A DNA stretch of 64,000 bases, from contig NC_068974.1 of the NCBI RefSeq assembly GCF_016808095.1, forward strand, positions 3,968,001 to 4,032,000, written 5' to 3'. How positions within the stretch are numbered: position 1 is the first letter of the stretch; each line of letters opens with the position of its first letter. Source of the DNA: Vigna angularis. Taxonomy: Eukaryota > Streptophyta > Magnoliopsida > Fabales > Fabaceae. This document shows positions 3,724-41,532 of the stretch, piece after piece. The notes beneath the pieces were generated by a model that ran no database searches, was not told where the DNA came from, and worked only from the letters and a program-made list of their open reading frames with translations. The translations under genes were made by a program, and so were the position numbers.

Positions 3724-4689
3724 CTAACGAGAACAATCGTATACACAAACACATTTATAATTTTGAGGATATTCAACGTAATATCCAATTCCGTGATATT
3801 GATCCTGACAATTCGCATTACAACTGTATATGCATGCATATGGATCCAATACTAGCATACATTTTTTTCCTGGCATTGCTCCACTTGTTCTTGAAATAGC
3901 TATCAAAATGTAAAAGGAAATGAAAGAAAAGACAATTTCTCATTAAAAATCACATACAGGTTAAGTTTCAGATATAAAAAATGTAGAATCAGGTACAAGG
4001 CTTTGTTTTGACTTCATATGCTGGCCAGTCAAAGGATATAATAACAGAAGAATGTCTCTTTAAAACTCATACAAATTTACTCAGTTGCGTTTATCTGAAA
4101 CTATATAATAACATAGAAAGTAAAATTAAATAAATACTTTATAAACTTTTTCTCAGTGTAATCTTTTAATACAGTACAAGTGGTAATATCTTTAAAGAAC
4201 TCAAGGAAGTGTAATGTTTTCTAAATAATTAAAGGAGATACGTAGAAATAGAAATAATTAAAGGAAATACGTACAAATAGAAATAAAGAGAATGCTCAAG
4301 TAATATCAGTAAAACTTCAAATATGAATAGTTTAATTTACTCTACGATAAATACTTCAAAAAGAATTTACTTATTATTAATATTTTTAGATTATGAAGAT
4401 ATTATTTTTTGAGTTAGCTAGTGGTAATTGATGTTGAATTTTCTAGATGTATCCACTCAAGTAGTTTGAATTCGTATATTTCAATTTTTTTGTTAAATTG
4501 AAGTATTTTTATATCCAAACTAATACACTGGAGATAATCACATGCCTAAATAAAACTATGATTAGGGTAATAAAAAAAATGGTTATATAGAATTTGGATG
4601 ATAATAAAAATATATATAGAAAAATGGTTATATATACCTGTAATGATTAAGGTAAGAGTGAAAATCAAAGTGAAGGAAATCTTAGCCAT
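3724..4689 (-). CDS. Defensin-like secreted cysteine-rich peptide, copy 1 (one cysteine missing)
   Basis: Exon 1 is 4638-4689 (52 bp, ATG at 4689) and encodes a hydrophobic signal peptide beginning MAKISFTLIFTLTLI. The donor reads ACAG|GTATAT. Exon 2 is 3724-3899 (176 bp), after the acceptor TTTTGATAG, and encodes the mature peptide. The intron is 738 bp and the product 75 aa. The mature part has the LCR / SLR1-BP-like scaffold: C-x8-C-x3-C-x3-C-x9-[C]-x8-C-x-C-x3-C, with the CxxxC and CxC of a CS-alpha-beta fold. In this copy the fifth cysteine, which all four paralogues have, is Tyr (HGIGYYVEY), leaving seven. That should leave one cysteine unpaired. The frame is otherwise intact. The family is secreted and acts as signalling or antimicrobial peptides; the role here is unknown. 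Closest paralogue: copy 2 at 17173-18104. Confidence 0.85.
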
Positions 4690-4759
4690 CACCGAAACAA
4701 AACAGCAATATGAATAAGGATAAATTGTTGTTGATATTGTGATTGAATATGAGGCGAAA

Positions 4760-4772
4760 GGTTTATATAAAC
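4760..4772 (-). promoter_or_regulatory. TATA box of defensin-like copy 1
   Basis: On the minus strand the sequence is TTGTTTATATAAACC, a palindromic TATA element about 75 bp upstream of the ATG at 4689. The same motif lies at the same distance upstream of all five defensin-like copies (about 18176-18187, 23540-23551, 32218-32229 and 41610-41622), which supports both the motif and the chosen start codons. Confidence 0.65.
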
Positions 4773-6330
4773 AAAATAGTTGGTGTGAAATCATTTATAA
4801 GAATACGTTCCCTTATTAATTTTTGTAAACATGTATTGAAACTCTTATTTAAAGAATTTATTCTATACTTAGAGCGGTTAATTGATCCTATTTCCATTTA
4901 AATATAGAAAAACACTGAAGAGTGTACAGTAGTAATATTTATCATCACGAAAACATTAATCACAATTTTCAAATATTCCAAATAATTTTATTTTATATTT
5001 TTTACATTAATATATTTAGAGCAACTAAGCATATAACTCTTTTTTTCTTCGTGTTCTCATCGTGGAATCTTGAATTCACTCAAGTGCTTGGTTGTCATTT
5101 AATTTAGTTCTTTCATTTAATGGCTAATGAAGGAAAAACATTGTCGATCCTCTAATTTAGAATCTCTTTATTTCGAAAAATATTTTTTTTAAATAGATAA
5201 AACGTACTTACACCGTTACCATTCATTTTTAACCATATAATAAGGTGATTTTAAATAGACAATGCTTTTCATATTTCAATCAAAAAATATATTTTTTATT
5301 ACGAATTTATGCTCAAATCAATTACTCATTTTAAAAACTAGGTTATTTTAAGAAATTTGTATCAACAAATGGTCTATTCTTCTCTAAATATTCCAAAAGC
5401 CTTTAAACTGAGAAGAGAAAGTGCAATTTATGGTACTTTAATTGTTACGAAAACATTTTATGTTTAGTAGAAAACCTTGTGATCTTTCCTCCGCATGCAC
5501 GTCTCTCTCTCTTTCTTTATCTACATATTTAATTATTTTAAATTTTAAATATTCTATTAGGGAATTATAATTTTTAAATTGTGGGTTGTGTGTAATATAT
5601 TCTTATTTATCATTCAAAAATTTAATACAAGTGCTATGAGATTTTTCTTTTATTAATATGGATTTTTTTTTTACATATATAAATAAATAAAGATAAAACA
5701 GTTAAGTAAAAATAATTGACTACGAATTCTATTTAACTAAAATAGTTTGGTGAAGATCTTAATTTCTGGTCCTCTTTATAATAACGTTCAAATGTTAATG
5801 ACTATAAAAATAATTAATGACAAAGTTGCTTGTAAGGTGATTTTAAATGGACAATTATTTTCATATTTCAATAAAATATAAATTTTTTATTACGAATTGA
5901 TCCTCAAATGTATTATTCCTTTTATGACAAAATTATATTATTTTAATAAATTTGTTTCAAAAAATGGTAGATTCTTTTTTAAATATTCAAAGCCCTTAGG
6001 CTGTGCTCATATTAAAAAATGAATATATGATAGATAGGTAGCGGATGGATTTGAGATTTAAGATTAATTTGATTTTTTTTTTCAAAGAATTTAGATGTGA
6101 GTGAGAGTGAATTTGAAAGTAAAGTTTATAAAAATTAGTCTATAATTTAACTAATGTGATAGATAACAAAAATGTTTTAATTGATAGAAATGAAATATTA
6201 CCAAAATGGGATAAAAGTAATATAAAATATTAATTTTTAATAATATATTTAATTGTATAAATTATTAAAAGAGGAAAAAAAATCAAAATTATTGTTTGAA
6301 TGAAGTAATTAAAACAATATATTTTTTTAG
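4773..6330. repeat. Upstream flank of defensin-like unit 1, with an internal duplication
   Basis: There is no gene. The flank is shared by all five units. It contains a duplicated block: a first copy near 5221-5510 and a shorter second copy near 5835-6000. Both run from GGTGATTTTAAAT through TTCATATTTCAAT to an AAATATTC(C)AAAGCCCTT-like motif. The first copy ends in TCCGCATGCACGTCTCTCTC. Since the other units show the same doubling, it predates the array expansion. Confidence 0.55.
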
Positions 6331-6392
6331 GATTATTATTATTATTACTTTTTTTATTATTATTATTTATTATTATGATGATGATTATTGCA

Positions 6393-6444
<52 letters not shown>

Positions 6445-6449
6445 GGTCC
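6331..6449. repeat. (TTA)n microsatellite, left part
   Basis: A run of TTA/ATT trinucleotides with minor interruptions. The tract belongs to the unit (compare 19515-19735, 27908-28130 and 44220-44343/45284-45490). In unit 1 it was split by two later insertions, so its remaining pieces are 9071-9150 and 11180-11427. Confidence 0.9.
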
Positions 6450-9065
6450 TGTAACATCCCAAAATTATACAGTCAGCAACTATATACTTAGAATAATTAC
6501 ATGTATCAATAACCCAAAACAGTTTAAAAGTAAAGGGAACAGATTTAAATAAATGGCCGAACGGCCTTACTTATACACAATTCAACGAGCGTTCACAAAA
6601 TAATAAGGACGAACGGTTTACAAAACCATGACCGAACGTCCAACTATTTACAATCAACAAAAGAGCCCTTACTGTTCGGCCCTCACCTCAACTTCTACTA
6701 AGTTATCTTCAGCAATAACTTCCTCTTCAAGTGTTTGCTCAAGAGACACATCTCCCTCTGCTCACATCCAAGACGGATGTACATAACCAGACAACACAAT
6801 GGAAATGCAAGGGTAAGCTTATTGAATTTAATTCAAGTCAAAACCGATATTTCATACTTATCAAATTTAGCAAGTAAATTCACAACATATACATTCAATT
6901 CATACATAAATTTCATCCAAAACCCTGATACTAGACCGACTGTCCGGACTGTATGAATCCTGTGTAGCTAAGGCGTCCGTGCACTCAGGTGGGGTAACTG
7001 GAATGCTCATCAGTAGCCACCTAAGGTTAGTCTGTTCTGTCCAAGTTACAGTTATGGACTAGACCTCCTGCCATTCCCACGCATGACATACTCCTCTCTA
7101 CTTGAGAACGAGCACTCACGGAATATCAGGATGAATCACCATCTAAGCTTACCACGTTCATACTTACAAATCTCAATATCCATTCAAGAGTCGTTCCACC
7201 CTGGAACGCTCGTTCAAATCCACAATCACAATTTCAGTTCTCATAGTGTTCGCACATCTTAATTCATCCTCTTAAATACATTTTCATTCTATGTTCCACT
7301 TTCTTAAAAAGACGAACGTTCACTCCTCTTCATAACGAGGACGAACGTCGAGAGCGAGACTGAGAAAGACTTCTTTGAATCAGTTAAATGAACTGACTCT
7401 AGTACGATCGGGAAAATACTTATAATAATTTAAGTTCAATGACTCTGGAACGAATCCAATGGATAGATACATCACAAACTTGTTTAGATAAATAAACCGA
7501 ACACGATTTAATTCAGGAGACAAACCGCCAGTCAATGACCGAGCGCGAAAGTAGGTGTTTTTAATGAATTTTTGGACGAACGTCACTGAAGACTTAGACG
7601 AACGTCACTAGATCTATTGGACGAACGCTATTTAAATTTATGGACGAACGCTATTACCGCTCGTTAATAATTTCGGAAGGAACGAACGTTCGGTATAGGA
7701 CCGAGCGTTCTTTACCACATACACATTTGGACGAGCGTTCGGTATAAGACCGAGCGCTACTTAGGACGTACGCTTTGGGTCGAGACCCATAGCTATTCAA
7801 TAAATTTTGAAATAAGATTTTTCATAAGTTATAATGTTGGAGTTACATTTGGACAATATGACTAAGTGTTTGAATATATTCACTGGCTTCTCAAATTTCT
7901 CACAAACACTCAGGGTATTTACGTTTGGCCGAACGCGCAAACGTAAGGCTAATATAAGAGAGCGTTCGTCCTCAAAGAGAATCCTTTCCAAATGAAAGGG
8001 TTCAACTACTTCAAAGAATTTACCAAGACTACCGAAAGGTCAAAGACCGTTTCGATAACGAACGTTCATTTTCATAGGATTTTCATATTTACATTCCACA
8101 TACAGTAACCATATTTTCCAGTATAAACTTTCATGCATTTAATCACTCATATCATGGCACAAATTCGTTCTTCTTCATACATCATCTCATCATACAACTC
8201 ATTTTTCAATTTAATCCAATCATAGAACATTTCATCATTTACATGCATCATTCCAGAATCATATTCGCATACCAAAATACAATAACATGAATCAGACTTC
8301 AAGCAACACTTAAACGTACATGCAGTACAGCACAATCACATGAATTAAATCTAATAAGCTTCCCTTACCTGGATTCAGGAGTGATCGCACGCTCTTCAGA
8401 CAGAAATCAACTTTCAGTAAAACTCTTCTCTACCCTTAACGCTCAACCCAAAACTATTCAAGCTAAAATTACAGAAAACCAAGATTGGTTCAGATAAGAT
8501 GCATGCAAATCCAGAGTTTGCATGTTGATAAGGAAGAACAGTTAAGAACGTGAAACTTACCCGTTTCAGAATCCAAAACTGTTCGGTTCAATTTGAAGCT
8601 TATGACGTCGGGAGCACTTCTATGGTGTCTGAACGGAGAAAGGAGAAGGGAAAGAATGAATTTCAGTAGAGAGAAGGAAGAGTTTTCTAGAGAGAAGGAG
8701 GAGAAAAAGGATTTTCTCAGAATCGTGAAAGCGGTGCGCGCAGAGAGAGAGAGTGGGCGTTTTTCTGAGAATTTCAGTTTTACTTGCCAGCGCTGAACGA
8801 ACGTCCTCTCTTCGACGGACACACGCTTTCCACTATCGATTCGCGACTCCCCTTGGCATGACACATGGCGTTCGTTAATGAAGTGTCGCGCTCTCCGAGT
8901 GACACGCGGACTGCACTGCGCTCATCACTCCAGACTCCATGCAGCGTGACACCTGGCGTCCGTTGGTGAAGTGTCTTTCTCTATGGTCACCACGTGCGTT
9001 GTTGAGGTGTCTCGTTCTCCGGCTGCCACGCGTACTCCAACGTACGTTATTTCCAGGGTCTGACA
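6450..9065 (-). mobile_element. Solo LTR (2616 bp) of a large, probably Ty3/gypsy retrotransposon
   Basis: The element has TG...CA termini (TGTAACATCCC at 6450, GGGTCTGACA ending 9065) and is flanked by a perfect 5-bp target duplication GGTCC (6445-6449 and 9066-9070). There is no second LTR or internal coding region between the ends, as expected after LTR-LTR recombination. The strand is inferred: read in reverse it starts TGTCAGACCC and ends TTTTGGGATGTTACA, a common plant LTR pattern. The interior is marked by many repeats of a GAACGTTCG / GGACGAACG motif. Short open frames inside have no recognisable domain. A diverged relative occurs at about 43440-44215. Confidence 0.85.
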
Positions 9066-9070
9066 GGTCC

Positions 9071-9150
9071 TATTACAGTTATTATTATTATTAATTTTAT
9101 TGTTGTTATTATTATTGTTATTATCCCTGTTATTGTTGTTGTTATTATTA
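9071..9150. repeat. (TTA)n microsatellite, middle part
   Basis: Continuation of the microsatellite between the solo LTR and the Pack-MULE. Bases 9142-9150 (TTATTATTA) form the left copy of the Pack-MULE's 9-bp duplication. Confidence 0.85.
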
Positions 9151-9548
9151 GGGTTAAATATGTTATTAGTCCCTCAACTATCAAGCGATTTTATTTTTCG
9201 TCCCTGTTTCAAACTTTGTACGATTTGATCCCTCTCCTTAAGGAAACCATAATTTTTGGTCCTCCAAAACAAACGGCGTTAAAATTCAAGTGAAGTGGCT
9301 AACGGTGGTGTGCCACGTAATATTTTCATGTTTACTCAGCCGCTCAACATCCAGAATGATTAAACACTCATCCAGAACGTCCCTCTGATCTCTTTCCTTG
9401 CATCTTCGTCTCCGTCCACCGCCGCAACCTCCGTCCCCATTCCCAACCACTGTCTTCCACGTCGAAGATCGCTCTCCATTGTTCTGTCACTTCATCTTCA
9501 GTCAGGGGAGGGGCTGGAGCCAGAGCTGGTGGCAAGAGAGATTTATCC

Positions 9549-10222
9549 ATGTTCTTGTTGGGGATGATTTTGGGTTTGTTGATTTGCATTAGAGAGTGGT
9601 TTGTGTGTGATAGGATCAATGCCCATTTTCTTGAGCTTTTTCTTTATGTGGGTGTTCCAGTGGTTTTTTATCTCATTATCAGTTCTTCGAGGAAGATGAG
9701 AAGCAATCTTGGACCATCTGAAAAGGAAAATGACAAATCAGTAAAACAATAATATGCAAACATATATATTTTTATTACAAAAATAAAACACGCTAAAGAA
9801 AGTTTCCTTTTTAGTCAATCACACCCAATTTTAGTCAATCACACCCAGTTTTAGTCAATTTTAACTGCAATCATGAGCAGATCCTTTTTACTTTTTTTAG
9901 TACTGAAAAAAAAAATGAAAGAATGAAAAGAAAAGAGCTTGGTCTACAAGCTTTGTACGCCTCCTTCCCCTGGAAGGTGCGAGCCATTATAGGACCACGT
10001 CTTTTGCCTAAGATGAATAAAGAAATTACAACTTGAGGCGTATGAATTATAGAATAATAAACTCAATTTGGTTGGTGCGTTTGGTGATACTTAAGATATC
10101 TTTGGATGGTTTAATCATTTCCCGAGATAAGCCTAGTATAATTTTTCAAATGAGCAGTGTAGCAATCATTTTTTTTTAATCATTAGTATGGTTCTTTAAG
10201 AAAAAATACACATGCAGAAAAG
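9549..10222. other. Pack-MULE interior without an identified gene
   Basis: A 67-residue open frame at 9549-9752 (+) has two hydrophobic stretches, but I recognise no family and it may be chance. It lies within the element and could derive from captured DNA. Directly repeated TTTTAGTCAATCACACCCA lies at about 9810-9855. Confidence 0.3.
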
Positions 10223-10256
10223 TTAAACAAGGGAAAATGGTGGGGGTGGAAATAAC

Positions 10257-10386
10257 CTATTGCTGAGTTGAGCATGAAGATCAATGACCATTTTCTCTTC
10301 GTATTCTGAAAGAAGGCCTCTCTTTAAGTCTGGTCTAAGGTAATTCGTCCACCTCAGCCTGCAACTCTTCCCACACCTTAATAATC
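10257..10386 (-). pseudogene. Captured exon 2 of an R2R3-MYB transcription factor gene
   Basis: Exactly 130 bp, bounded by an acceptor (ATGCAG) and a donor (AATAG|GTTATT). Translation gives [20 protein letters not shown] followed by [20 protein letters not shown] and SN: the end of MYB repeat R2 (Cys, the W of CRLRW, NYLRP) and the start of R3. The position and phase of both boundaries match the standard exon 2 of plant R2R3-MYB genes, which is 130 bp and ends just before the R3 Trp codon. The flanking introns look retained, so genomic DNA was captured rather than cDNA. Exons 1 and 3 are absent, so no functional MYB protein can be made. The reading frame has no stop. SEYEEK and QLSN differ slightly from the commoner SESEEK and QLGN. 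Confidence 0.9.
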
Positions 10387-10513
10387 CTGCATGGAACCAC
10401 ACCCCAATCGTTAGTCTGAACTCATTGAAGTCAGTCAAGGGGATCTCTTTCCTCAAATGAAACACCAGCTATGGCTCCAGCCCCTCCCCTGACTGAAGAT
10501 GAAGTGACAGAAC

Positions 10514-10824
10514 CCCTTTGCCTCCACTTTCTAAAATTTCCCCATCAAGCCCTATTTCTGGACCAGGAGCACCACCACCGCGAAATGCACAGGCTAAGGT
10601 CACTGTCTGCATCTTTTTATCCACTCGGACATTGCTTGTAGCTTCTCTTATGCTTTAGGTGATGCTGCATGCTTCCTGATTCCCCGTGAAAAAAAAAACA
10701 AAATAGAAATAAAATTTGAAAGAATGAAGCTTTTGTTTTCAGACAATGAGGTTTGCGAGTTTTACAAGATCTGCGAGATGAGAACCGAAAAAAAACTATA
10801 CTTATGAAATTCCAGCGGAAGAAC
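10514..10824. other. Segment interrupting the right arm of the Pack-MULE, possible second capture
   Basis: This 311-bp segment separates two parts of the right inverted repeat that are contiguous in the left arm (junction 9480/9481). On the minus strand a stretch near 10515-10615 is open and reads like coding sequence (TLACAFRGGGAPGPEIGLDG...). I cannot name the protein. It may be a second captured gene fragment. Confidence 0.4.
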
Positions 10825-11179
10825 CATGGAGAGCGATCTTCGACGTGGAAGACAGTGGTCGGGAATGGGGACGGAGGTTGCGGCGGTGGACGGAGACGAA
10901 GATGCAAGGAAAGAGACGGAGGGAGGGAGAGAAGCAGAGGTTCAGAGGGACACTCTGGATGAGTGTTTAATCATTCTGGATGTTGAGCGGCTGAGTAAAC
11001 ATGAAAATATTACGTGGCACACCACTGTTAGTCACCTCACCTGAATTTTAACGCCGTTTGTTTTGGAGGACCAAAAATTATGGTTTCCTTAAGGAGAGGG
11101 ATCAAATCGTACAAAGTTTGAAACAGGGACGAAAAATAAAATCGCTTGATAGTTGAGGGACTAATAACATATTTAACCC

Positions 11180-11427
11180 TTATTATTATTGTTATTATTA
11201 TTATTATTAGTGTTGTTGTTATTGCTATTATTATTCTTATTGTTATTATTAATATTATATTGTCATTGTTATTATTGTTGTTATTATTATTGTTGTTATT
11301 ATTATTGTTATTGTTGTTGTTATTATTATTATTATTATTAGTATTAGTGTTGTTGTTATTGCTATTATTATTCTTATTGTTATTATTAATATTATGTTGT
11401 CCTTGTTATTATTGTTGTTATTAATAT
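11180..11427. repeat. (TTA)n microsatellite, right part
   Basis: TTA/TTG-rich tract following the Pack-MULE. It contains a near-duplicate pair of about 120 bp (ATTATTAGTGTTGTTGTTAT near 11203 and ATTAGTATTAGTGTTGTTGT near 11335). The long poly-Leu and poly-Asn/Ile open frames across it are translation artefacts. Confidence 0.9.
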
Positions 11428-12880
11428 TGTTGGATTCGGTATCACGTAGTGGAGTATTTAAGAGCATGTTTAGGCAAAACCATTAGGAGAAGGGTGAATT
11501 GGTTCGAATTAAAAAAAAAATTGAATTCTTTTAAAAATTTCATTGGTGGAAATAAATAAAATAGAGTAAGGATGAGAGGATTCACACAAGTAATTTTTAT
11601 ATTGGTTCAAATCAAAAGATTCTACGTTTAGTTGTTAATCCCTCTAAAAAGAGTGATTAACATTTCACTAAAACGTAGTTCAAAATACAATAGGGAATGA
11701 ATACAAGATGGATTAGAAAACACCTTTCTTAACCGGTAAGAGATGACAAAACACCTTCTTCAACACGCGAGAGAATGAAAGACTTGATTCTGCTTAGTAG
11801 AGAACCACTTCCAACTCAAACACACCGAGTAAAGCTTCTCCTTCTTCAAGCACCGAACCTCAAGCTTTCTTAAACACTTAGAGTTTCCTCAAACTATTCT
11901 CTGTGCTCTATAATGTTTTAAGTAACCTTTTAAGAATTTGGACAAACACTATATATAGCCCAATGTTCGAGCTATGTCAAAAACTGAAAAGATAGCTCAC
12001 AACTTTCAGTGATAATCAATTATGACATTATAAATGGTTTCATTGTAGTGATAATCAATTATCCCATGTATTAAAGGATTATTTGTGAACCTTGGTCAAT
12101 TAAACTTTTCAGTGATAATCGATTATCCTGAGAGATAATCAATTATTGCCGAATTGAAGTGTTTTCTTATTTTTCACATGATAATCGATTATCCTTCGAG
12201 ATAATCGATTATTGCCACAATATAACTATGTTAAACATCAAACTACAATACCTCTTTTGGTTTAAAAATGAGAGCTAAGCCTATTACAAAGCATCTACAA
12301 CAAAAATGTTTTAACCCTTCAAAGCTTTAAGTTCATCATCATCAAAATCTTTTCAAAGCTTCAATGTTTTCTATTGGTAACAGTTATTCTATATTTTGAA
12401 TTGTATGCTATGTTATATTCCTAGTTACTCACCCTTTATTGTTGTGGTTGTGGTTCCACCTGCAATGATCGTACTTGTGTGGAAGTAGATCGTGTTGCAG
12501 ATTAGGAAGGGTTGAAGTAGGACGACAAGAAAAATGAGAATTATTTACTACTGGGATTTTATTACGTTTTAAAGTTATTTTATATTTTGAAGAATGGATT
12601 TCAATAATTGTAAGGCTTGAACTTTATGTTATAAAACGTTTGAACATTTGAGGTTTTCGTTTCTACGACTTTATATCAATGAAAAAAAAAATTGGTGAAA
12701 TTTTCAGATTTTATTAATTAACTCGTGGCACTCTGTTAGAGGTGTTACATTCCTCATGGACGAAAATGGTCTGGTCTTGTGTTCTGGTGCATGGCGATTT
12801 TGATTTAGGGTTTCAAATTGGGGTTTTCCACAAGGAATTGCGATTCACGAAAGTGTGTGGTTTAAGCGAATTGGTTTCCC
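11428..12880. repeat. LTR-like dispersed repeat, copy 1 (unit 1)
   Basis: It begins TGTTGGATTCGGTATCACG and the LTR-like part ends GTTAGAGGTGTTACA at 12749 (TG...CA, about 1.3 kb). It contains a TATA-like CTATATATAG near 11951 and several GATAATCGATTATC palindromes (12004-12210). Copies 2 (19739-21720) and 3 (45495-47640) are colinear. No 5-bp duplication flanks it, because the copies multiplied with the array rather than by separate transposition. The shared sequence after 12749 is cut off at 12880 by the CACTA-like block. Confidence 0.6.
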
Positions 12881-13514
12881 GCACTACAGGAAAACACATG
12901 ATTTCCCGCAGAATATTACCGACGGCCTCTAGGTCGTCAGTATTGGCTTGGTGAATTAATTTACCAAAGGATATATGACCGTCGGTAAGATGCTCGATTA
13001 ATAAACCCCAAAACTTGGGTTTCCCTCACCCATCTTTCATTTTTCAAACCAAAGAATTTCGCTTTCTTCTTCGAGCCATCGAACCCTTGCCAACTTTCCC
13101 CTAAATTGGTTGCTTCGAACCTCCTTGGCAAACTTTCATTCACGGACGCCATCTCCATCCTTCACACAACCATTCGCAGAAGCCGTCTTTGGTGGCGCTT
13201 CATTGGAGGGTTTGTTCAAGACCAAGGGTTTGTTGGCGACTATTAGCAGAGCATCCATCTCCTTCCCTCATGTGCAGAGGTAGAGCCATTCACTCGTAGA
13301 GGATCCTTCGTAGAGTTGGTAAGTGTCTCATTCTAGCACTTCGCAAATGGGTATTGTCGTGATGCCTTGTACGTCACATTTTGTAGGCCATTGTAGTGGT
13401 GCGTCGAAGGTCGAGTGAAGCGCACTCTAGGGCAAAGGTGTGGACATTATTCCCTTCTTCCCTTGTAATGGTCTTGGGAGGCTGTCTTCATCCAGGGGGC
13501 TGTAACATGGAGGT

Positions 13515-14260: not shown

Positions 14261-14443
14261 CACATGCACAAATTCAATTTCTTCATCAATAACAATGAAA
14301 AAGGGAAAATCAAATCAATATCACAATCACAATTGCATTAAACAATGTCTTCATTCACATTCAATGAAAGTATTATGCTAATCCATACATTTACATATAC
14401 CAATAATGCATAATCCATAATTTTACATATAAAATTACATAAA

Positions 14444-16195: not shown

Positions 16196-16336
16196 GTCCT
16201 AAAATATAATAATGTTAATATATAATTTTGGGAATGTGCCCATATATCTCAAGATCCACTTTTAGAAGTGTTGAATACTTTGTATAAGTTAGTTTTGACT
16301 CCAAGTATTAGTCTACGACGTAGAAATCTCCTCAAA

Positions 16337-16384
<48 letters not shown>

Positions 16385-17172: not shown

Positions 17173-18104
17173 CTAACTAGGACAATCGTATACACAAACA
17201 CATTTATAATTTTGAGGATATTCAACGCAATATCCAATTCCGTGATATTGATCCTGACAATCCCCATTACAACTGTACATGCATGCATATGGATTCAATA
17301 TTCTCGTACATTTTTTTCCTGGCATTGCTCCACTTGTTCTTGAAATAGCTATCAAAATGTAAAAGGAAGAGAAAGAAAAGACAATTTCTCATTAAAAATC
17401 ACATACAGGTTAAGTTTCAGATATAAAAAATATAGAATCAAGTAGAAGGTTTTGTTCTGATTTCATATGCTGGCAAGTCAAATGATATAATAACAGAAGA
17501 ATGTGTCTTTAAAACTCATACAAATTTACTCAGTTGCGTTTATATGAAACTATATAATAACATAGAAAGTAAAATTAAATAAATACTTTATAAACTTTTT
17601 CTCAGTGTAATCTTCTAATACAGTACAAGTGGTAATATCTTTAAAGAACTCAAGGAAGTGTAATGTTTTCTAAATAATTAAAGGAGATACGTAGAAATAG
17701 AAATAAAGAGAATGCTCAAGTAATATCAGTAAAACTTCATATATGAATATTGTAATTTACTCTACGATAAATATGGTTACAATTTCTAAGATTAATAACT
17801 TTTTCTTTTATATAGATGTTCAAAAAGAATTTACTTATTATTAATATTTTTGGATTAAAGATGAAGATATTATCTTTTGAGTTAGCTAGTGGTACATTGA
17901 TGTTGAATTTTCTAGATGTGTCCACTCAGGAATTCAACAATTAAGTAGTTTGAATTCGTATATTTCATTTTTTTTAATTGAAGTATTTTTTACAACACAA
18001 CTAGAATTTGGATGATAATAAAAGAAATATATAGAAAAATTGTTATATATACCTGAAATGATTAGGGTAAGAGTGAAAATCAACATGAAAGAAATCTTAG
18101 CCAT
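17173..18104 (-). CDS. Defensin-like secreted cysteine-rich peptide, copy 2
   Basis: Exon 1 is 18053-18104 (ATG 18104, signal peptide MAKISFMLIFTLTLIIS). Exon 2 is 17173-17348. The intron is 704 bp. Splice sites match copy 1 (donor TTCAG|GTATAT, acceptor TTTTGATAG). The product is 75 aa. It has all eight cysteines in the pattern C-x8-C-x3-C-x3-C-x9-C-x8-C-x-C-x3-C; the glycine before cysteine 5 (GIGYC) and the CVC pair fit the gamma-core and CS-alpha-beta motif of LCR / SLR1-BP-like defensin-like proteins. It differs from copy 1 mainly between cysteines 1 and 4 (CTRILNPYACMYSCNGDC) and at the C-terminus. A TATA box lies at about 18176-18187. The function is not known: secretion and a disulfide-stabilised fold can be inferred, target and tissue cannot. 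Confidence 0.88.
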
Positions 18105-18189
18105 CACCGAAACAAAACAGCAATATGAATAAGGATAAATTGTTGTTGATATTCTGATTGAATATGAGGCGAAGGGTTTATATAAACAA

Positions 18190-22995: not shown

Positions 22996-23461
22996 TTAAC
23001 GAGAGCAAACGTATACACAAACGCATTTGTGAGGATATTTGTCAACGCAATACCCAGTTCCGTGATATTGTTCCTCGCAATCCTTACGACACGTACTGAG
23101 GTTGCAGTAATTTGGATTCAATACTAGCATACACGGTTTTTCTGGCATTGCTCCACTTGTTCTTGAAATGGCTATGAAAATGTAAAAGGAAATGAAAGAA
23201 AAATAAGTGTAAGGAATATTACAAATATGTTCTTTACACATATACAGATACATAGAGATCATCACAGGCCTTAATAAAACTATGTTGATAGAACCATTAG
23301 TTTACTGCATTTGTACGACGTATAACGGCTGCTAAAAGAGGATATATGAATGGCACTATAGAACTTGGATAATAATAAAAAAATATACAAAAAATTGTTA
23401 TATATATACCTGTAATGATCAGGGTTAAAGTGAAGATCAAAAAGAAAGAAATCTTAGCCAT
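22996..23461 (-). CDS. Defensin-like secreted cysteine-rich peptide, copy 3
   Basis: Exon 1 is 23410-23461 (ATG 23461, signal peptide MAKISFFLIFTLTLIIT). Exon 2 is 22996-23171. The intron is only 238 bp. The product is 75 aa, stop TAA. It has eight cysteines spaced C-x8-C-x4-C-x3-C-x9-C-x7-C-x-C-x3-C. This spacing (x4 and x7) and the short intron separate copies 3, 4 and 5 from copies 1 and 2 (x3 and x8, long intron). The mature part begins ISRTSGAMPEKPCMLVLNPN and ends CVCVYVCSR. It is an LCR / SLR1-BP-like member of the defensin-like family, predicted extracellular. A TATA box lies at about 23540-23551. Just upstream the unit is interrupted at 24122 by an LTR retrotransposon, about 660 bp from the ATG, which may have altered its promoter. 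Confidence 0.88.
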
Positions 23462-24121
23462 CACCGAAAGAGAAGAGCAACACCAATAACGATAAATTTA
23501 GGTTTGTTGTTGATATTATGATTAAATATGAGGCGAAGGGTTTATATAAACAAAATAATTGGTATGAAATCATTTATAGGAATACGTTGCCTCATTAATT
23601 TTTGTACTCATGTATCGAAACTGTAAAGATTGTCGATCCTCTAATTTAGAATCTCTTTTATTAGAAAAACATTTTTTTAAGTAGATAAAACGTACTTACA
23701 CCGTTACCATTCATTTTTAACCATATAATAGGGTGATTTTAAATTGACGATTCTTTTCATATTTCAATCCAAAATTAATTTTTTTATTATGAATTTATGC
23801 TCAAATCAGTTACTCCTTTTATCTCAATCCAAATAATGCATTAATGCCAAAAAATAGGTTATTTTAATAAATTTGTTTCAAAAAATGGTATATTCTTTTC
23901 GAAATATTCCAAAGCCCTTAAACTGAGAAGAGGAAACGCAATTTATGATACTTTAATTGTTACGAAAACTTTAGAAAACCATGTGATCTTTTCCTCCGCA
24001 TGCACGTCTCTCCCTCTTTCGTTATCTACATATTTAATTATTTTAAATTTTAAATATCCTATCAGAGAATTATAATTTTTAAATTGTGGGTTGTGTGTAA
24101 TATATTCTTTTTTATCATTCA

Positions 24122-31200: not shown

Positions 31201-31654
31201 AAAGATATCAAAACAGATAATAAGTAATAAAAAAATAATTAAATGTTGACAATAAATTACATTTGCAAAAAATAATAATATTTATTTTTATTATTTTTAA
31301 AAATCATAAATATTGGTATTTATTTATTTTATTTCAACCAAATAATCTTCATATCTATATCTCTTTTTTCTCTTTTTTTTCAATTCATTTTTTTTTTCAA
31401 TTCAAAGATCTCATATTTCCACTACTTTTTCTATTTTATTTATTTTCTCTATACTAAGTGGATTATTAAAATGTGGTGTTCTCAAATTTGAATTGATTAT
31501 GTATCCAATGTACCAGTTAAATCAAATCACATTTTGTTAAACTCTTTTACTATTATGTCTTAATACTGATCTGAACTCAGGAACAAAAGGAAGTAGAAAT
31601 CATTTTATTTTCTTCTTCTTTCGTATTCCAAATTAAACATTACGACATGTCCTT
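31201..31654. other. Downstream flank of defensin-like unit 4
   Basis: AT-rich and colinear with 22420-22995 and 40440-41058. No gene; the hydrophobic open frame at 31263-31457 is AT-rich noise that is not conserved between units. Confidence 0.5.
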
Positions 31655-32139
31655 CTAACGAGGGCAATCGTATACACAAACACATTTGTGAGGAGCTATG
31701 TCAACGCAATACCCAGTTCCCTGATATTGTTTCACACAATCGCTATGACACGAACTGCGGTTGCACTCATTTGGATCCAATACTAGCATACACTGATTTT
31801 CTGGCATTGCTCCACTTGTTCTTGAAATACCTATCAAAATGTAATAGGAAATGAAAGAAAAATAAGTGTAAGGAATATTATGAATATGTTCTTCACAAAG
31901 ATACAGAGACATAGAGATCATCACAGGCATTAATAAAACTATGCTGATAGAACCATTAGTTTACTGCATTTGTACGACGTAAACGGCTGCTAAAAGAGGG
32001 ATATATGAATGACACTAGATTGTTTTACAATACGACTACAACTTGGATAATAATAAAAAAATATACAAAAAATTGTTATATATATACCTGCAATGATCAG
32101 GGTTAAAGTGAACATCAAAGTGAAAGAAATCTTAGCCAT
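31655..32139 (-). CDS. Defensin-like secreted cysteine-rich peptide, copy 4
   Basis: Exon 1 is 32088-32139 (ATG 32139; donor TTGCAG|GTATAT). Exon 2 is 31655-31830 (acceptor TTTTGATAG). The intron is 257 bp and the product 75 aa. Eight cysteines are spaced C-x8-C-x4-C-x3-C-x9-C-x7-C-x-C-x3-C. The mature part begins ISRTSGAMPENQCMLVLDPN. It differs from copies 3 and 5 mostly between cysteines 2 and 5 (ECNRSSCHSDCVKQYQGTGY) while the region before cysteine 1 is nearly invariant, suggesting that the middle loop varies. The junction codon gives Gly where other copies have Ala. A TATA box lies at about 32218-32229. LCR / SLR1-BP-like member of the defensin-like family, predicted secreted; biological role unknown. 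Confidence 0.88.
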
Positions 32140-32229
32140 CACCGAAACAGAACAGCAATACCAATAACTATAAATTTAGGTTTGTTGTTGATATTATGAT
32201 TAAATATGAGGCCAAGGGTTTATATAAAC

Positions 32230-33721
32230 AAAATAATTGGTACGAAATCGTTTATAAGAATACGTTGCCTCATTAATTTTATATAAACAAAAGAATTTAT
32301 TCTATATTTAGAGGGGATAATTGTATCCTATTTCCTTTTAAATATACAAAATTTCTGAAGAGTGTATAGTAGTAATATTTTATTTCTAACATAAACTTCC
32401 AAATAAGTTTATTTTTATATTTTTTACATTAATATAACTCCTTTTCTCGTTATGTTCACATCGTCGAATCTTTAATAAAGGAGGAAAAACATTGTGGATC
32501 CTCTAATTTAGAATCTCTTTATCTCGAAAATTATATATTTTTTTTTTAAATAGATAAAACGTACTTACACCGTTACCATGCATTTTTAACCATATAAGGT
32601 GATTTTAAATTCACAATGCTTTTCATATTTCGATCAAATATTAATTTTAACCATATGCTCAAATCACTTACTCCTTTTATCTCCATCCAAATAATGCATT
32701 TAATGACAAAAATTATGTTATTTTAATAAATTCGTTTCAAAAAATGGTGTATTCTTTTCTAAATATTCCAAAGCCTTTAAACTGAGAAGAGAAAGTGCAA
32801 TTTATGGTACTTTAATTGTTACGAAAACTTTTTATGTTTAGTAGAAAACCACATGATCTTTCCTCCGCATGCACGTCTCTCTCTCTCTCTATTTATCTAC
32901 ATATTTAATTATTTTAAATTTTAAATATCCTATCAGGGAATTATATCATTTAAATTGAGGGTTGTGTCTAATATATTCTAATTTATTATTCAAAAATTTA
33001 GTACAAGTGATATGAGATTTTTCTTTTATTAATATGGGTTAGTTTTCTTTTTTACATATATAAATAAATAAAGATAAAACAGTTAAGTAAAAATAATTGA
33101 CTACGAATTTTATTTAACTAAAATAGTTTTGTGAAGATCTTAACTAAAATTTTAATTTTTTTTTACGAATTTACCCTCAAATCTAGTACTCCTTTTTATC
33201 TCAATCCAACTAATGCATTTAATGACAAAATTAGATTATTTTAATAAATTTGTTTCAAAAAGTGGTATATTCTTTTTGAAATATTCCAAAGCCCTTAAAC
33301 TGAGAAGAGGAAGTGCAATTCATGATACTTTAATTAATTGTTACGAAAATTTGATCTTTTCTCCGCATGCACGTCTCTCTCTCTCATGCACGTCTCTCTC
33401 TCTCATGCACGTCTCTCTCTGTACATATAAAATGTTTGTTAAAGTGTTGTGTTTTATACATATTTTTTATATTAACCAATTTACCTATATATTTTAATGT
33501 GTAAAAATAAGAAAAATAAAATTGGTTTTATCTACATATTTAATTATTTAAAATTTTAAATGTCAAGAAATTATAATTTTTAAATTCTGGGTTTGTGTAA
33601 TATATTATTATTTATCATTCAAAAACTTAATACAAAGGCTATGAGAATTTTCTTTTATTAATATTTGTTCGTTTGTTTTTATTACGTATATAAATTAATA
33701 ATGATAAAACACTTAACTAAA
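32230..33721. repeat. Upstream flank of defensin-like unit 4
   Basis: Colinear with the other unit flanks, with the doubled block at about 32590-32900 and 33170-33420. Within the second block the phrase CATGCACGTCTCTCTCTCT is repeated in tandem three times (33366-33421), where unit 5 has about two. Unit homology stops at 33721. No gene. Confidence 0.6.
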
Positions 33722-36594
33722 AGGTTTAATAATTTTTTATGTCCCTTTTTATGTAGATTTGTCTCAAATTAGTCCTTCAGTTAAATTTTAACTCAATTAG
33801 ATCATTATTTGTACAAAATTAAATCAATTGAACTCTTACCGCTAATTTGAATGAACGTCGTTATGTTTTGAGTCACGTGGCATACTGAGATAACAAATAT
33901 TAACCACATGACACTGACTTGGTGGCATTACTTCGAATTTAATTATTTTAACTTTTAAAAAAGTAAAACTTAATTAGAGAACCAACAACCGTTCCAGGAT
34001 TTTAACTATATAAAAAAGTAAAACTTATATATATAATCTATATAAACATTCTAAACCAAACAAGAATCATTAAATCACATAAAACATGCATTAACTTTGA
34101 AACAAGAGCGTTGAACGCTAGTCCTAGCGTCCAACGCCAAAACTCTTGCAAACACTTTAGCCTAGCGAGCCTAAACTTCTCACCCAACGAATTACAAAGA
34201 AAAGGTTCCAGACCTGCAAGGGAAGAAATGACACTTAGCGCTTAAAATAATCGCTCATCACCGCACTAGAAACCAGAAACTTCAAATGTTGCTTTGATTG
34301 CACTCAAGACCTATCCAAATTATCAAATGGTTATTCATGACACCGTGATTGAATTGAAAACAAGTTTAAACATCATATTGAATACCAATTTGCTTAATTA
34401 GCCAACGAATCAATCCATCAGATCAAACCAATATCAAAAAATGTTCAAACATCAATTCATCATGCCAAATGATAAAAAATTCAACATTACAAATAGCTAA
34501 CCAAGTCCTAAATTGCATAAACTCAGACCGCCAACACTAAAGTCATTCAACAAGCCATCACCATAGAATTTCACATGTTATACCACCAATTGTACATTAA
34601 AACAAGCACACATTCAACAGAATTCACACCAACAACTTTTAGAGAGAAGTCAAAGAACTCTAGAAAAGGAGTTTCTAGAGAGATTGTGTGTTTTAAAAAA
34701 ATAAAACTCGATCATAACGAAATAATTCTTATTAAAATTATTTAATATTAAAATAATCGAGTCTCTTTACTTTTAAACCATTATCACTTCCAAAATCCAT
34801 TTTCCAAGTCTTTACACACATTAATATTGTTTCCTTCTATAATAATTCCTTTATATAATAATAGTAGTCATTGTACGATTTTAAATAAAATAATAATATC
34901 AGTAGTCATGATACGATTTTAAATAAAATTGTAAAAAACTAATTAATATATTTTTTTCGCGTAAAAATGTATTACATAAGATTTAATTTGTAGGGTAAAT
35001 TTTGTTCTGGCTGGTAAACGGTTAGCCCAAACAAATACAAATATTTTTACCTTTACACTCACCGTTTCCTCTTCCTTTTTTCACTTGTCTCTTTAACTCC
35101 TTGTTAGTTCACCTTCTCCTGCAAACCATGAGCGTCCTGTGATGGACACAAAGGATCTCTTCTAGTTGCTCCATGCTTATGTCCTTCCTCATATTATATA
35201 ATTCTTTGTTAAGATAAGAATGTCTATAAGACAGGATCGTATAACACCTTCATGTTTTGAAGCTTAACAAACAAAGATAAACGAAATGAATATTAGACAA
35301 AGTATTATCTCTACGAAAATAATATCATTGAATGAAACACATCTTATGAAAAAATCATTATAGCATCTTAATAAACAAAGAAAAGTTTAAGTAAATATGT
35401 TAGGACCAAAGATCCTATTTTTCAGTAAACACACTACTCCTAGATGACTTATTATGAAATGGTTACTTCATGATATTTTAGTAAACGTACTATTAAATGA
35501 TATTTTAGTAAACGCACTATTATGATAGTAGACACACCATTAAATGATATTTTTGCAAACAAATCAATATGCTACATGATATATTTGCTAAATGTGCTCT
35601 ACTATATATTTGAAAACAATGCAATGATGTGATACATGATGTTTTTGACAAACATTCTAAACTACAAAAACAATATGTTGAGTAACACTTTCTTAAACGT
35701 GCTTTCGTATTAAAAAAAGATCATTAAACTATGCACTGTTAGTAAACGCCTTTAATAGCCTAAACGACACCTTTATATTAAACAACATTTTCATACAACG
35801 ATGAAACATTTATGAATCAGTACTTGATATCTTTTCAAAAATGCTTAAATGAGTTACATATATAGAAAAATTGACAAAGTTGTTTTGAACATGCAATGCA
35901 AAACATTACATGCACAATGTTTCAAACAACAAAAGTAATAAAACAAATGACATATCTGTCAACATAAATTTCTACTCTACTCTGTGCAGAAGCATATCAT
36001 GAACAAGTCAAAAGTGAACATTAGAAACAAAGAAGACATTCATGTTGAAGAGTTCGTACAACATACTTTGGTTAAAGTACTGCAAAAAGCATGCTTACTC
36101 TGACATGTTAACTTCAACCTATGGCTGTCACCTACGAAAAGGCTATGAAGATCTGAAGTTTGAAGATATGAATTGTCTAACAGATCCCTTCCTATGAAGC
36201 CTATAAATAGAAGATCTCTTGGAAAGAAGATAAGAAGGATAAGCACACAAACAACGAAAAGATCAACTAACATAAAGTGAAACTCATACTCGTGCAAGAA
36301 TAGAAACTATGAGAATATACTCTCAAGCTTCATAGAGTCATAAGCTTACATCTATAAGAAAAGAGAAAATCCTACAAGATCTATTAGATTGAGTTATATT
36401 GTAAACACATCCTATCTGTGAGAGTTAAACAATATGATTGATTATACATTCTGAAGAGAATTCAAACACTTGGTGGCTAGCTTAGTTGAGTTAAACGCCT
36501 ATTAGACAATTGTCTAGGGGAACCAGGAGTGGGTAAACTCAACTAGTCATCGTAAGAAGTGTTACCTGGATTGACTAAGTAACCATGAGTGGTG
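33722..36594. other. Foreign block in unit 4, probably retrotransposon-derived
   Basis: Not present in the other units. The last part (about 36200-36594) looks like the downstream half of a plus-strand LTR: TATA box CCTATAAATAGAAG at about 36200, then a long leader with GGGGAACCAGGAGTGGGTAA near 36519, a phrase type frequent in copia LTRs. Precise ends and target duplications were not found. No protein-coding region was recognised from 33722 to 36200; repeated 'TAAACGCACTA' / 'TGATATTTTAGTAAACG' phrases lie at about 35420-35560. Confidence 0.4.
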
Positions 36595-36651
36595 ACAATA
36601 TAATTAGAAGTAGAGGAGCTCGGATAAGAGCATAAGAACTCGGCTGATAGC

Positions 36652-37921
36652 TGATAACAATTGAAAAACTATTATTTTTATACTTAAAATTGACCTTAAA
36701 GACAACCTTTATGACTTAGAAACTAGCTTGGAATCATGCTTTTGTTTATGTTTTTGAAATAAGAGAGTTGGATGGGTTTTATGCTTGGTTTTCCTTGTTT
36801 TTGCAGGTTTTAAGATGAATTGGATGAAAGAAGTGAAGTAGGAAGAAGTTGGAATCAGAAAGGAAAGTGAAAAGTGCACAAAAAGAGAAGACACGAGTAC
36901 CGCCGCTGAGCGGTGTTCTTAAGGTCCCGTAGTTACCGCTGAGGGGTAGAAATGCAACTGAGCGTCAAATAGAAGAACGCGCACTTACCGCTGAGCGGTA
37001 TTTACCGTTGAGCGCCATTTTTGTGGGCCTTGGGCCACTTTTCTGTAATTTTTAGAATACTATATAAGGTTTTAGTTGACCTAGGTCAGTCATCTTTGGC
37101 TGGAACGAAGCAGAATACACTTTCTTCACCCCTTGGAGGAGGATTTTGGATGCTTAAGCTCCATTCTTCAAATTCTAGGGTTTTATCTTTCATTCTTTCA
37201 TTATTTTTCATCTAGTTTCACCATGATTATGGTGAACTAAACCTTCATTGTTGTTGGGGAACCATTGTAATTCTTTGAAGCTCTCATGTATTGAATTGAT
37301 TCTTTATAATATATGCTTTCTTTCATTAATTGTTAGGGTTTTTCTTATATACTCTATGCATGCTTTGTTTAACTCATTCAATTGCATGAGCATTGATTTT
37401 GTCGATATGGACACATACGGGGAATTCTAGACATGAAGAAATTCTCCCAATAGTAGTATAAACCTAGACATAGGAATATGATGGTAGGTTGCCTTTAAGC
37501 TTCTGTGCAAATGTAATGCATGAATAATTGCTAGGGAGACAAGACATTGTAAACTAGTGATTAGGAGTAGGCTTTCTTCACCAAGACATTGGGTTTAAGG
37601 TAATTTAGAAAGTGACATTAACATTAATGAAGAAAGATGAATTCTTGAATACATGAGAGTGGATAGGATGAATTGGTAAACCCCAACAACATAATCATTC
37701 ATATTATTCATCAACCTTTTTTGCATTGTTCAAGTCCATTAATCAAAACCTTGCATTCATGTTTATTTTTGCATAGTTCAACAACAATATTTTCGGTTAC
37801 AAGTCTAAGATAATCAACAAATCACATAGCTGTTTAAGCTGTGAGTTCTTTGGGAAATGATACTTGGTCTTACCAATTTTATTACTTGATACGATTCGGT
37901 TACACTTTCCGAGGGTTAACA
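36652..37921 (+). mobile_element. Solo LTR (1270 bp), Athila-like Ty3/gypsy
   Basis: It has TG...CA ends (TGATAACAATTGAAAAAC at 36652, CCGAGGGTTAACA ending 37921) and a perfect 5-bp duplication ATAGC (36647-36651 and 37922-37926). Unit 5 shows the empty site (CGGCTGATAGCATAACTAGC at about 48500). No internal region is present. The TGATAAC start and the GGTTACACTTTCCGAGGGTT end resemble Athila-group LTRs of legumes; that lineage call is from memory. Several TACCGCTGAGCGGT-type palindromic phrases lie at about 36900-37015. Confidence 0.85.
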
Positions 37922-37926
37922 ATAGC

Positions 37927-40252
37927 ATAACTAGCCTAACATGCAGCTTGGTACACAAATACAAGACCCAAAGAATGTGCAAGAAAAACCTATACAATTC
38001 TAGATTATTTTTATATTAGAAACAATGAATCTAAAATTGGGCCTAACCATGGACCCATGATGTAAGTCCTTAAAATGATTGTCATCACAACAGGTCCAAT
38101 AGTCAAAGTCTAGTAAAATAATCAAAGTTGGTTAAACAAGAGGGTATAATGAAAATACTGATATATTAGGATTTCTCAGCAAATTTCAACTGCGTGATTA
38201 CAAAAACTGAACTGGAAAGTTGGACAAAATTCAATTGTTGGTAATTTATTAAATATTTTTTATTTAATTATACTATAAATTTTCAACATAAAATATTAGC
38301 CAAATATTTAAAATCGATCAAATCTATTAATTATTTTGGAGATATTACATTATCATAAAATAGATTTTAGCAATAGAAAAGTAAAACCCAACCCAAATGA
38401 AGTTCTATATAAAGAAACCAATGGGAAGCATGAAAGGAAACTCTTATCCACTCTAATTGTGTACAATTGTAATCCACCATGTCTACCACTTTCTTTCCAC
38501 TTTTTTTCTCATCCATTCATTTTATCCATGGAGGGATAACCTTCTTGAGTTGATTTTGTTTTAATTTTATTATGGATTATGAGATTAGATTAAAATAATG
38601 TCTTTGTTCTTTTTATTATTATTTTGGTTTTCATTTTTCTATGTCTTTTATCTCTGAATCATATAAAAATTAGTGGTTTATATATCATAGCGAACTAGTA
38701 AGGTTTTTAATCTATATGCATATTGATCATATGAGTCTCAAGGTTTTTAATTTTAGTGGAGAATGTACTTTGATTAAAGTTATAAGCTTTCTTGAGTTTT
38801 TGTCAATATTTTAGAATGTAGTTTATAATTAAAGGTAAAATTTTGAACAATAGTTAACCTAAGATTGTACTTTAATTAATTAGTCTTTTATTTGGTAAGG
38901 AGACAAAAAAATATACATGATTAGACATAGTATAATTTATTAAGAATGTACTTTGCTTGAATTTACTATATATAATCTAAAAAAGTTTTTCTTTTTATTT
39001 CAGAGTCTACTTTAATTAATTTAAAATCAAAATAATAATAAATTGAACAATAATATGTAGATATTAATTTATTATTTTATTTATTGTTATCAATCTCACA
39101 TTTATATTTTTGTATAACATTGTTATTTATTAATTTTATTAGGTTATATTTTTACTTTTATATTTTATTATTTAGATTATGTTTTATTAACCCTTCATGT
39201 AGGATTTTATAAGAATCAATTGTTGAGAATCAATTTCGTATTCATTGATACGACTTAAACTTAACTTAACTCTATCTAATTTGTTAACTACTAACTTGGA
39301 AATATTGATGTTTTCTTAGCCAATTCAACAAAAACTAATGAGTTTTATTTAAACTTTGTTTTGTAAGCCTTTGTTTAAAAGCGCTTACATGTGAAATTAC
39401 CATTTAAGATGGTTCTTGTCATTTCCTTTCCACAACACCATTATGTTGTTTTCCAAAGCTTTTAAATACTTAGCAAAGATTTCCAGTTTGAAATTTCTCA
39501 CCAAGATCATTTCTAACAAAAAAAGTTGTTAAGGTCTTTTGTCATTTTGAACATGTTTTATGATTTTACAAAAGACCTTGCCAGACATCCGGTGTAGTCA
39601 TTTTCAATGACCCAACCATACCTCTAAGACTCGGTGCTAGATTTCCAACTTATATAAACATTATAAACCTCAAATGTCAAAGATTAAACATATAAAACCA
39701 TTTTTTCAAAATATAATTTGATATGCAAAACATGTTGATTAAGCATTTAAGTTGTATGTATCAATTAAACACATGTCCCTTGTTTCTCATTTAACTAAAG
39801 ACTTTCTTGTTTAGTAGTATATATGAATGTTTTTTTATCATCAAAATTCTTTCACCTAAGGGATTCATCCACTTCAACATGGCATACACTCGTTGAATAT
39901 CAGGTTGCTAATGTAGAGTAATTTGAATCGAGCTCCACGTGTGATTAGAGGAAAGAGGAAAGATCGACCCCACTTTTTGATACTTATATCAGTAAGAGAG
40001 TAAAAATATGTAAATAATTATGAATGTAATGAATATCAAAGTAAAAGTGATACTTCCCAAATATTTTATAATACATATAAGACTATTGAAAATAAAAATA
40101 TCAAAAAAGATAATAACTAATAAAAGATAATGATGTTAACATATAATTTTGGAAAATATGTTCTCGTGATCCATTTTTTAAAGAGTTGGGACACCAAAAA
40201 TTAGGCCAGACCTACAAATTTTGTAAAAGGCTATGTATATAAAATAAGAAAT

Positions 40253-40256
<4 letters not shown>
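37927..40256 (-). mobile_element. Decayed copia-like segment, copy B
   Basis: Colinear with 28931-31200: the TTCTATATAAAGAAACCAAT region at about 38403, the GAATGTACTTTGATTAAAG phrase, and the antisense integrase remnant at about 39350-39625 (ACCAAGATCATTTCTAACAA and neighbouring phrases shared). It is more deleted than copy A. No intact coding region. Confidence 0.55.
39350..39625 (-). pseudogene. Remnant of copia integrase, second copy
   Basis: Paralogous to 30425-30790, with the same order of phrases on the plus strand (CATTTAAGATGG, CCAAAGCTTTTAAAT, GGTCTTTTGTCATTTTGAAC, CCGGTGTAGTCATTTTCAAT). It has further small deletions and no open frame. Confidence 0.65.
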
Positions 40257-40291
<35 letters not shown>

Positions 40292-41058
40292 GAAATTTAA
40301 ATATATATTAATTGTTATATATGTGCACTGTATCCTTTAAACGTGATTCTTTTAATTAAGACAGTAGTACAAAATAAATGATAATAATATTAATGTTTGT
40401 GAATAATGAAAAACATAAAATAAAATGACAAAATACTGTTAGTAATAAAAAATAATTAAATGTTAATAATAAATTACATTTGCAAAACATAATAATATTT
40501 ATTTTTATTAATTTTAAAAATCATAAATATCAATATTTATTTTAGTATTTATTTATTTTATTTCAACCATATAATTTTCTTATCTATTTCTCTTCTTTTA
40601 TTTTCTTTTTCTTTTTTCACTTCATTTTGTTTTCAATTCAAAATCTCATATTTTCGACTACTTTTTCTATTTTATTTATTTTCTCTCTAGTAAATGGATT
40701 ATTAAAATGATGGTGTTGTCAAATTTGAATTGATTATGCAGTAAAATCAAATCTATTTTTGTTAAACTCTTTTATTATTAAGTCTTAATACTGATCAAAA
40801 TTCAGGAAAAAAGGTAGGAAGAAAGAAGACTATGCATGTCCTTTCTCGTTGTCAACACTTATTTTCCCCATTAATTCTACTGTTCAACGTTGTATGCTTA
40901 GAAATCATTGGCTAAGTACTTTTCTATATCTTCGTGGAAGAATAAAATATAGACATACTACACCAAAGCTTCAACTGTTAATAGTATAAAGTAACAGTAG
41001 AAATCATTTTATTTTCTTATTCTTTCGTATTCCAAATTAAACATTAGAACATGTCCTT
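40257..41058. other. Downstream flank of defensin-like unit 5
   Basis: (AT)n at 40257-40287, then AT-rich sequence colinear with 16380-17172 and 22260-22995. No gene. Confidence 0.5.
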
Positions 41059-41532
41059 CTAATGAGAGCAAGAGTATGCACAAACACATTTGTGAGGATA
41101 TACGTCAACGCAATATCCAGTTCCGTGATATTGTTCCTCACATTCCATACGACACGTACTGAGGTTGCAGTAATTTGGATTCAATAGTAGTATACACGGT
41201 TTTTCTGGCATTGCTCCACTTGTTCTTGAAAAAGCTATGATAATGTAAAAGGCAATGAAAGAAAAATAAGTGTAAGGAATATTATGAATATGTTCTTCAC
41301 AAAGATACAGAGACATAGAGATCATCACAGGCATTAATAAAACTATGCTGATAGAACCATTAGTTTACTGCATTTGTATGACGTAAACGAGGGATATATG
41401 AATGGCACTATATTGTTTTACAACACGACTACAACTTGGATAATAATAAAAAAATATACAAAAAATTGTTATATATATACCTGCAATGATCAGGGTTAAA
41501 GTGAACATCAAAGTGAAAGAAATCTTAGCCAT
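41059..41532 (-). CDS. Defensin-like secreted cysteine-rich peptide, copy 5
   Basis: Exon 1 is 41481-41532 (ATG 41532). Exon 2 is 41059-41234 (acceptor GATAATCATAG-type, ending TCATAG). The intron is 246 bp and the product 75 aa, stop TAG. Eight cysteines are spaced C-x8-C-x4-C-x3-C-x9-C-x7-C-x-C-x3-C. The mature part is close to copy 3 (CNLSTCRMECEEQYHGTGYC), with changes after cysteine 1 (CILLLNPN) and at the end (CVCAYSCSH). The residue after the junction is Phe instead of Ile. A TATA box lies at about 41610-41622. LCR / SLR1-BP-like defensin-like family; predicted secreted; function unknown. Its upstream flank is the least interrupted of the array. Confidence 0.88.

Follow-up and report, generated by a model that had tools for sequence, protein, structure and literature searches.

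A tandem array of five SLR1-BP-type defensin-like genes in Vigna angularis with codon-level signs of diversifying selection, linked to an S-domain receptor kinase gene

Defensin-like genes are numerous, and few of them have a known partner. We describe here five such genes arranged in tandem, all on the minus strand, which span positions 3724-41532 of a 64-kb stretch of Vigna angularis DNA (contig NC_068974.1, positions 3,968,001 to 4,032,000; hereafter the window). Plant gene clusters of this kind are already known. The AtLURE1 cluster of Arabidopsis, to which the array can be likened by description, is likewise a species-specific cluster of defensin-like genes, and its peptides are established diffusible pollen-tube attractants (PMC3525529). 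In Medicago, about 60 defensin-like genes are expressed in reproductive tissue, with 56 confined to seed, and most of the family is found in nodules (PMC3601123). In common bean, the defensin-like gene Phvul.011G150800 is named within a Pv11 interval (42.3-43.2 Mb) tied to resistance to anthracnose race 3481 (PMC13315937, which in one place prints the race as 384). A literature search listed no paper recognisable as a description of the Vigna array itself. The array may represent a set of diversifying secreted recognition ligands, reproductive or immune, of the SLR1-BP/PCP-A/LCR type, a statement that taken as a whole could about equally well stand or fall.

All five gene models consist of a 52-bp exon 1 and a 176-bp exon 2, separated by a phase 1 GT-AG intron whose length varies from 238 to 738 bp, and in each the frame is open and gives a product of 75 residues. 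The two exon sizes and the absence of any frame lesion had been proposed in an earlier reading of the sequence alone and are upheld in every model. The sequence-only reading had further called all five genes intact, which is true of the frames and not of all the products. Each preprotein starts with a hydrophobic segment that is conserved among the copies and, as judged by eye, ends in SGA; the mature part that follows has about 50 residues, among them eight cysteines in genes 2-5 and seven in gene 1. In the latter, tyrosine occupies the fifth of the eight positions (3773-3792, minus strand), at which the other nine of ten aligned proteins have cysteine; gene 1 is open but structurally not intact. 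A TATATAA box lies upstream of every gene in near-identical sequence context. Its distance, previously described as constant, falls into two classes, with a start at -80 from the ATG in genes 1-2 and at -87 in genes 3-5. The exons below are taken from the gene models, the assignment of exon 2 in genes 2-5 being backed by Pfam and in genes 2-4 also by a database match; TATA boxes are assigned from offset and context.

3724..3899, minus strand: gene 1 exon 2, 176 bp, mature peptide, cysteine 5 replaced by tyrosine (PF07333, 21.6 bits)
4638..4689, minus strand: gene 1 exon 1, 52 bp, signal-like segment
4763..4769, minus strand: gene 1 TATA box (-80)
17173..17348, minus strand: gene 2 exon 2; protein identical to VIGAN_06033300
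18053..18104, minus strand: gene 2 exon 1
18178..18184, minus strand: gene 2 TATA box (-80)
22996..23171, minus strand: gene 3 exon 2; protein identical to VIGAN_06033400
23410..23461, minus strand: gene 3 exon 1
23542..23548, minus strand: gene 3 TATA box (-87)
31655..31830, minus strand: gene 4 exon 2; protein identical to VIGAN_06033500
32088..32139, minus strand: gene 4 exon 1
32220..32226, minus strand: gene 4 TATA box (-87)
41059..41234, minus strand: gene 5 exon 2; no identical protein in the database searches
41481..41532, minus strand: gene 5 exon 1
41613..41619, minus strand: gene 5 TATA box (-87)

The locus tags of genes 2-4 (VIGAN_06) very likely place the array on chromosome 6. 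Two of the five genes had no database protein in searches by shared words among 90%-identity clusters, and these two may be absent from the current annotation.

The genes almost certainly belong to the SLR1-BP/PCP-A/LCR-type defensin-like family, as the earlier reading had suggested. Genes 2-5 score 28.0, 37.0, 38.9 and 37.2 bits against SLR1-BP (PF07333; Pfam gathering cut-off 22.7 bits), so that four of the five pass and gene 1, at 21.6 bits, falls just under. Genes 3-5 also match the eight-cysteine pattern of A. thaliana, CX(5-12)CX(4-8)CXXXCX(9-16)CX(3-14)CXCX(0-5)C (PMC9856046); gene 2 deviates solely in a C2-C3 spacing of 3, and gene 1 combines the same spacing with the lack of C5. The array resembles described members of the family in the profile match of four genes and the cysteine pattern of genes 3-5, but differs from them in being a legume tandem array, in the shorter C2-C3 spacing of genes 1-2 and in the missing C5 of gene 1. 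With classic plant defensins (gamma-thionins, PF00304) the peptides share the predicted CS-alpha-beta (plant defensin-like) fold, whereas the profile stays under its cut-off of 25.1 bits, with 8.2 for gene 2, 13.6 for gene 3 and 13.7 for gene 5 and PF00304 absent from the matches listed for gene 1 at E up to 10 and for gene 4 at E up to 0.1, and the net charge of the mature peptides is near neutral (-2 to +1). No match to an SCR family (SCR/SP11 male determinants) was listed in whole-Pfam scans (E up to 10 for genes 1-3 and up to 0.1 for genes 4-5), the filters of which drop weak matches. Sequence searches against solved structures returned weak matches only.

Variation among the five peptides is unevenly distributed. 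Mean pairwise difference is highest between C3 and C4 (0.83), followed by the C-terminal tail (0.65), C2-C3 (0.64) and the mature N-terminus (0.60); it is intermediate for C1-C2 (0.47), C7-C8 (0.37), C4-C5 (0.29) and C5-C6 (0.29), and lowest in the signal part (0.11) and in C6-C7 (0, a single column). Variation had been said to lie mainly between cysteines 2 and 5, a description that does not hold, given the low value for C4-C5 and the high values at both mature ends.

Selection on codons was analysed by site and codon models run on the five sequences with a script of our own rather than PAML. Under M0, omega (dN/dS) for the whole gene is 1.10, which does not differ from 1 (p = 0.76), and the same applies to the signal part (0.66, p = 0.54) and the mature part (1.18, p = 0.66) taken separately. 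Nevertheless, the positive-selection model M2a is preferred over M1a for all codons (2dL, the likelihood-ratio statistic, 10.07; p = 0.0065) and for the mature part alone (2dL 7.12, p = 0.028), and sorts the codons into classes with omega near 0 (34%), equal to 1 (54%) and of about 6.8 (11%). A posterior above 0.7 was obtained for three codons of the mature part (39, 42 and 47) and for codon 7 of the signal part. Leaving out one gene at a time gave p values of 0.001-0.018 for M1a against M2a, and none of 89 null simulations reached the value of 9.05 that the data gave on a fixed scaled tree. These results favour a mixture in which some codons are constrained and others positively selected.

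A second line of evidence compares replacement divergence in the mature part with divergence of adjacent non-coding DNA, in a test that covered five of the ten gene pairs; the pairs are non-independent and the p values uncorrected for multiple tests. Replacement divergence exceeds that of non-coding DNA for genes 4 and 5 (31655-41059, p 1e-7) and genes 3 and 4 (22996-31655, p 0.002), and for genes 2 and 5 (17173-41059) it exceeds both the 3' flank (p 0.009) and the 5' flank (p 5e-7). It is not above non-coding DNA for genes 3 and 5 (22996-41059, p 0.67) or genes 1 and 2 (3724-17173, p 0.12), and the signal part of the 17173-41059 pair is not significantly slower than its flank (p 0.07). Divergence along the 31655-41059 pair is mosaic, so that gene conversion is a caveat on the selection signal. 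For this reason the naive pairwise omega of gene 4 against gene 5, at 7.5 over the full coding sequence and 6.6 over its mature portion, is treated with caution. In the same pair, an excess of divergence focal to the mature exon is favoured, because the near-3' stretch beyond exon 2 is low again (3/63). Two other sets of values were set aside: a near-3' count of 15/63 for the 31655-22996 pair, probably a misalignment across a 3-bp gap, which enters no test but does enter the pooled indel rate used below, and the values of 0.50-0.77 for intron divergence of genes 1-2 from genes 3-5, where the introns are very unequal in length.

Survival of the open frames was assessed against neutral simulations whose branch lengths were set by hand to reflect the divergence of the flanks. 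Of 20,000 runs, 0.57% left all five frames with start and stop codons in place and free of premature stops, and none kept all five frames once frameshifting indels were included at a flank rate pooled from overlapping pairs; frame survival through chance is therefore unlikely. At least 39 of the 40 cysteines were kept in 8.2% of simulations, and cysteine survival alone is not decisive.

The earlier case for selection had rested on open frames surviving in heavily decayed surroundings. This argument is weak: where they align, the flanks of the units share stretches about 76-92% identical (window self-comparison, aligned stretches of 250 bp or more, E no higher than 1e-20), and they are thus moderately diverged duplicates that contain indels. 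Selection is supported instead by codon heterogeneity, by the excess over non-coding DNA in some pairs and by frame survival itself. The array multiplied through segmental duplication, with gene-to-gene spacings of 13.4, 5.8, 8.7 and 9.4 kb, and some shared stretches (27160-28025 and 33145-33722) comprise flank only, without a gene. A tblastn search of the window with the five proteins recovered no sixth copy, either complete or broken, the best matches elsewhere having E values of 0.019 for exon 2, in low-complexity sequence, and 0.074 for exon 1; as no broken copy was found, five of five copies have an open frame.

Several other features were noted in the DNA around the genes. An open reading frame with a gypsy-type transposon domain (PF04195) lies between genes 3 and 4 (25453-26109, minus strand), and one with a plant mobile domain match (PF10536) between genes 1 and 2 (15089-15811, minus strand). 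An inverted repeat (9144-9388 / 10942-11186) with 245-bp arms, 97% complementary and 1.55 kb apart, is possibly a mobile element, and an overlapping direct repeat (13522-13980 / 13815-14266) has a period of about 293 bp at 91.5% identity. Long low-complexity tracts with a periodicity of about 3 bp recur in the duplicated units, at about 11200-11480, 19490-19790, 27870-28170 and 45220-45570. Rfam gave no match in the window at gathering thresholds.

Relatives of the array are found in other legumes. Phvul.011G150800 of Phaseolus vulgaris, taken by its identifier to be database protein PHAVU_011G150800, and VNO80_25601 of P. coccineus are about 65% identical to gene 3, and the cysteine framework is common to relatives from three other named legume species. 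In the shared-word search, P. vulgaris and P. coccineus are represented by one 90%-identity cluster each, against five genes here. Resolution is poor in a maximum-likelihood tree built from 11 mature domains (node support of 30, 50 and 56, others 73-98), which leaves undecided whether the five copies form a single Vigna clade. As to other bean reports, the available text of PMC4500563 names a different gene, Phvul.005G071400, and the LCR mentioned in that of PMC4569411 carries no gene number there.

Beyond gene 5, the window contains two genes of resistance or receptor type recognised by domain matches:

51465..55657, minus strand: NB-ARC / RPS2-type leucine-rich repeat (LRR) resistance-type gene, in several open pieces
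58817..61799, minus strand: S-domain (G-type lectin) receptor kinase gene

The former includes further RPS2-type LRR pieces that follow stops (52314-52667 and 51465-52277, minus strand). The latter carries B_lectin, S_locus_glycop and PAN_2 domains in a single exon and kinase pieces in other exons, all of them open, with the motifs GEGGFGPVYK, HRDLKPSN and DFGLA, and at about 17 kb from gene 5 it is tightly linked to the array. On bean Pv11, the gene numbers above that of the defensin-like gene include leucine-rich Phvul.011G151300 and S-domain or G-type lectin kinases from Phvul.011G151800 to 153000, several of which are described as inactive; other genes among them encode kinase-domain proteins (150950, 152400) and quinone reductases (152800, 152900), as given in the available part of PMC13315937. 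The order of gene classes (defensin-like gene, leucine-rich gene, S-domain kinases) matches in both species, that of bean being read from gene numbers, and conserved synteny between the window and Pv11 is likely.

How might these peptides act? Their signal-like segment, judged by eye, suggests that they would be secreted, and the cysteines and predicted fold point to a disulphide-held scaffold whose framework selection would have kept. Exposed residues of the helix and of the N-terminal part would diversify, each peptide binding a changing extracellular partner, as the combined pattern of constraint and diversification suggests. A recognition ligand is preferred over a membrane-lytic antimicrobial because the mature peptides are near neutral, a charge that makes lytic activity less likely. 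The whole-gene omega weighs against this interpretation: a ratio near 1 had been named beforehand as one part of a refutation, whereas codon heterogeneity favours selection. The same omega is what would be expected if the copies were non-functional passengers of segmental duplication with frames intact through recency alone, and the cysteine lost in one copy and the two copies without a database protein fit such an origin as well. It is nonetheless improbable in view of the rarity with which neutral simulations kept five frames, the class of codons at an omega near 0 and the cysteine framework common to relatives in the three other legumes.

A possible but clearly less probable alternative to recognition ligands in general is that the genes encode immune effectors: secreted defensin-like peptides that would act on microbes or insects and diversify in response to pathogens or pests. 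Positive selection is consistent with such an arms race, the predicted fold is defensin-like, the neighbours are of resistance and receptor type, and Phvul.011G150800 falls within the anthracnose interval. However, antifungal defensins are usually cationic, whereas the mature peptides have a net charge of -2 to +1, and the PF00304 scores of the three genes listed are below the cut-off. The leucine-rich and kinase genes of the bean interval may moreover account for the association, and PMC13315937 itself says that it offers no functional validation. By analogy with the SCR-SRK and SLR1-BP-SLR1 pairs, the array might also supply candidate ligands for the linked S-domain kinase or kinases. The open exons of the kinase gene close to gene 5 and the similar order on Pv11 would fit such a module, but both families are large and often clustered, the linkage may be due to chance plus conserved synteny, several of the bean kinases are called inactive, and linkage alone shows no ligand-receptor pairing. 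We regard this alternative as very unlikely.

The preferred interpretation remains that of diversifying recognition ligands, and the linked S-domain kinase, with an arrangement that may be conserved in bean, is the part that merits follow-up. In this small, well-bounded array, codon-level signs of diversifying selection occur next to a gene of a class that might supply the receptor. The gene classes listed for common bean follow a similar order, and a ligand-receptor hypothesis in legumes thereby becomes directly testable. It is a long shot that a legume module predating the Vigna-Phaseolus split exists, in which diversifying SLR1-BP-type peptides would signal through the S-domain kinases linked to them. 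If true, such a module would be a non-Brassicaceae counterpart to the pairing between S-domain receptors and cysteine-rich ligands, serving pollen recognition or immunity.
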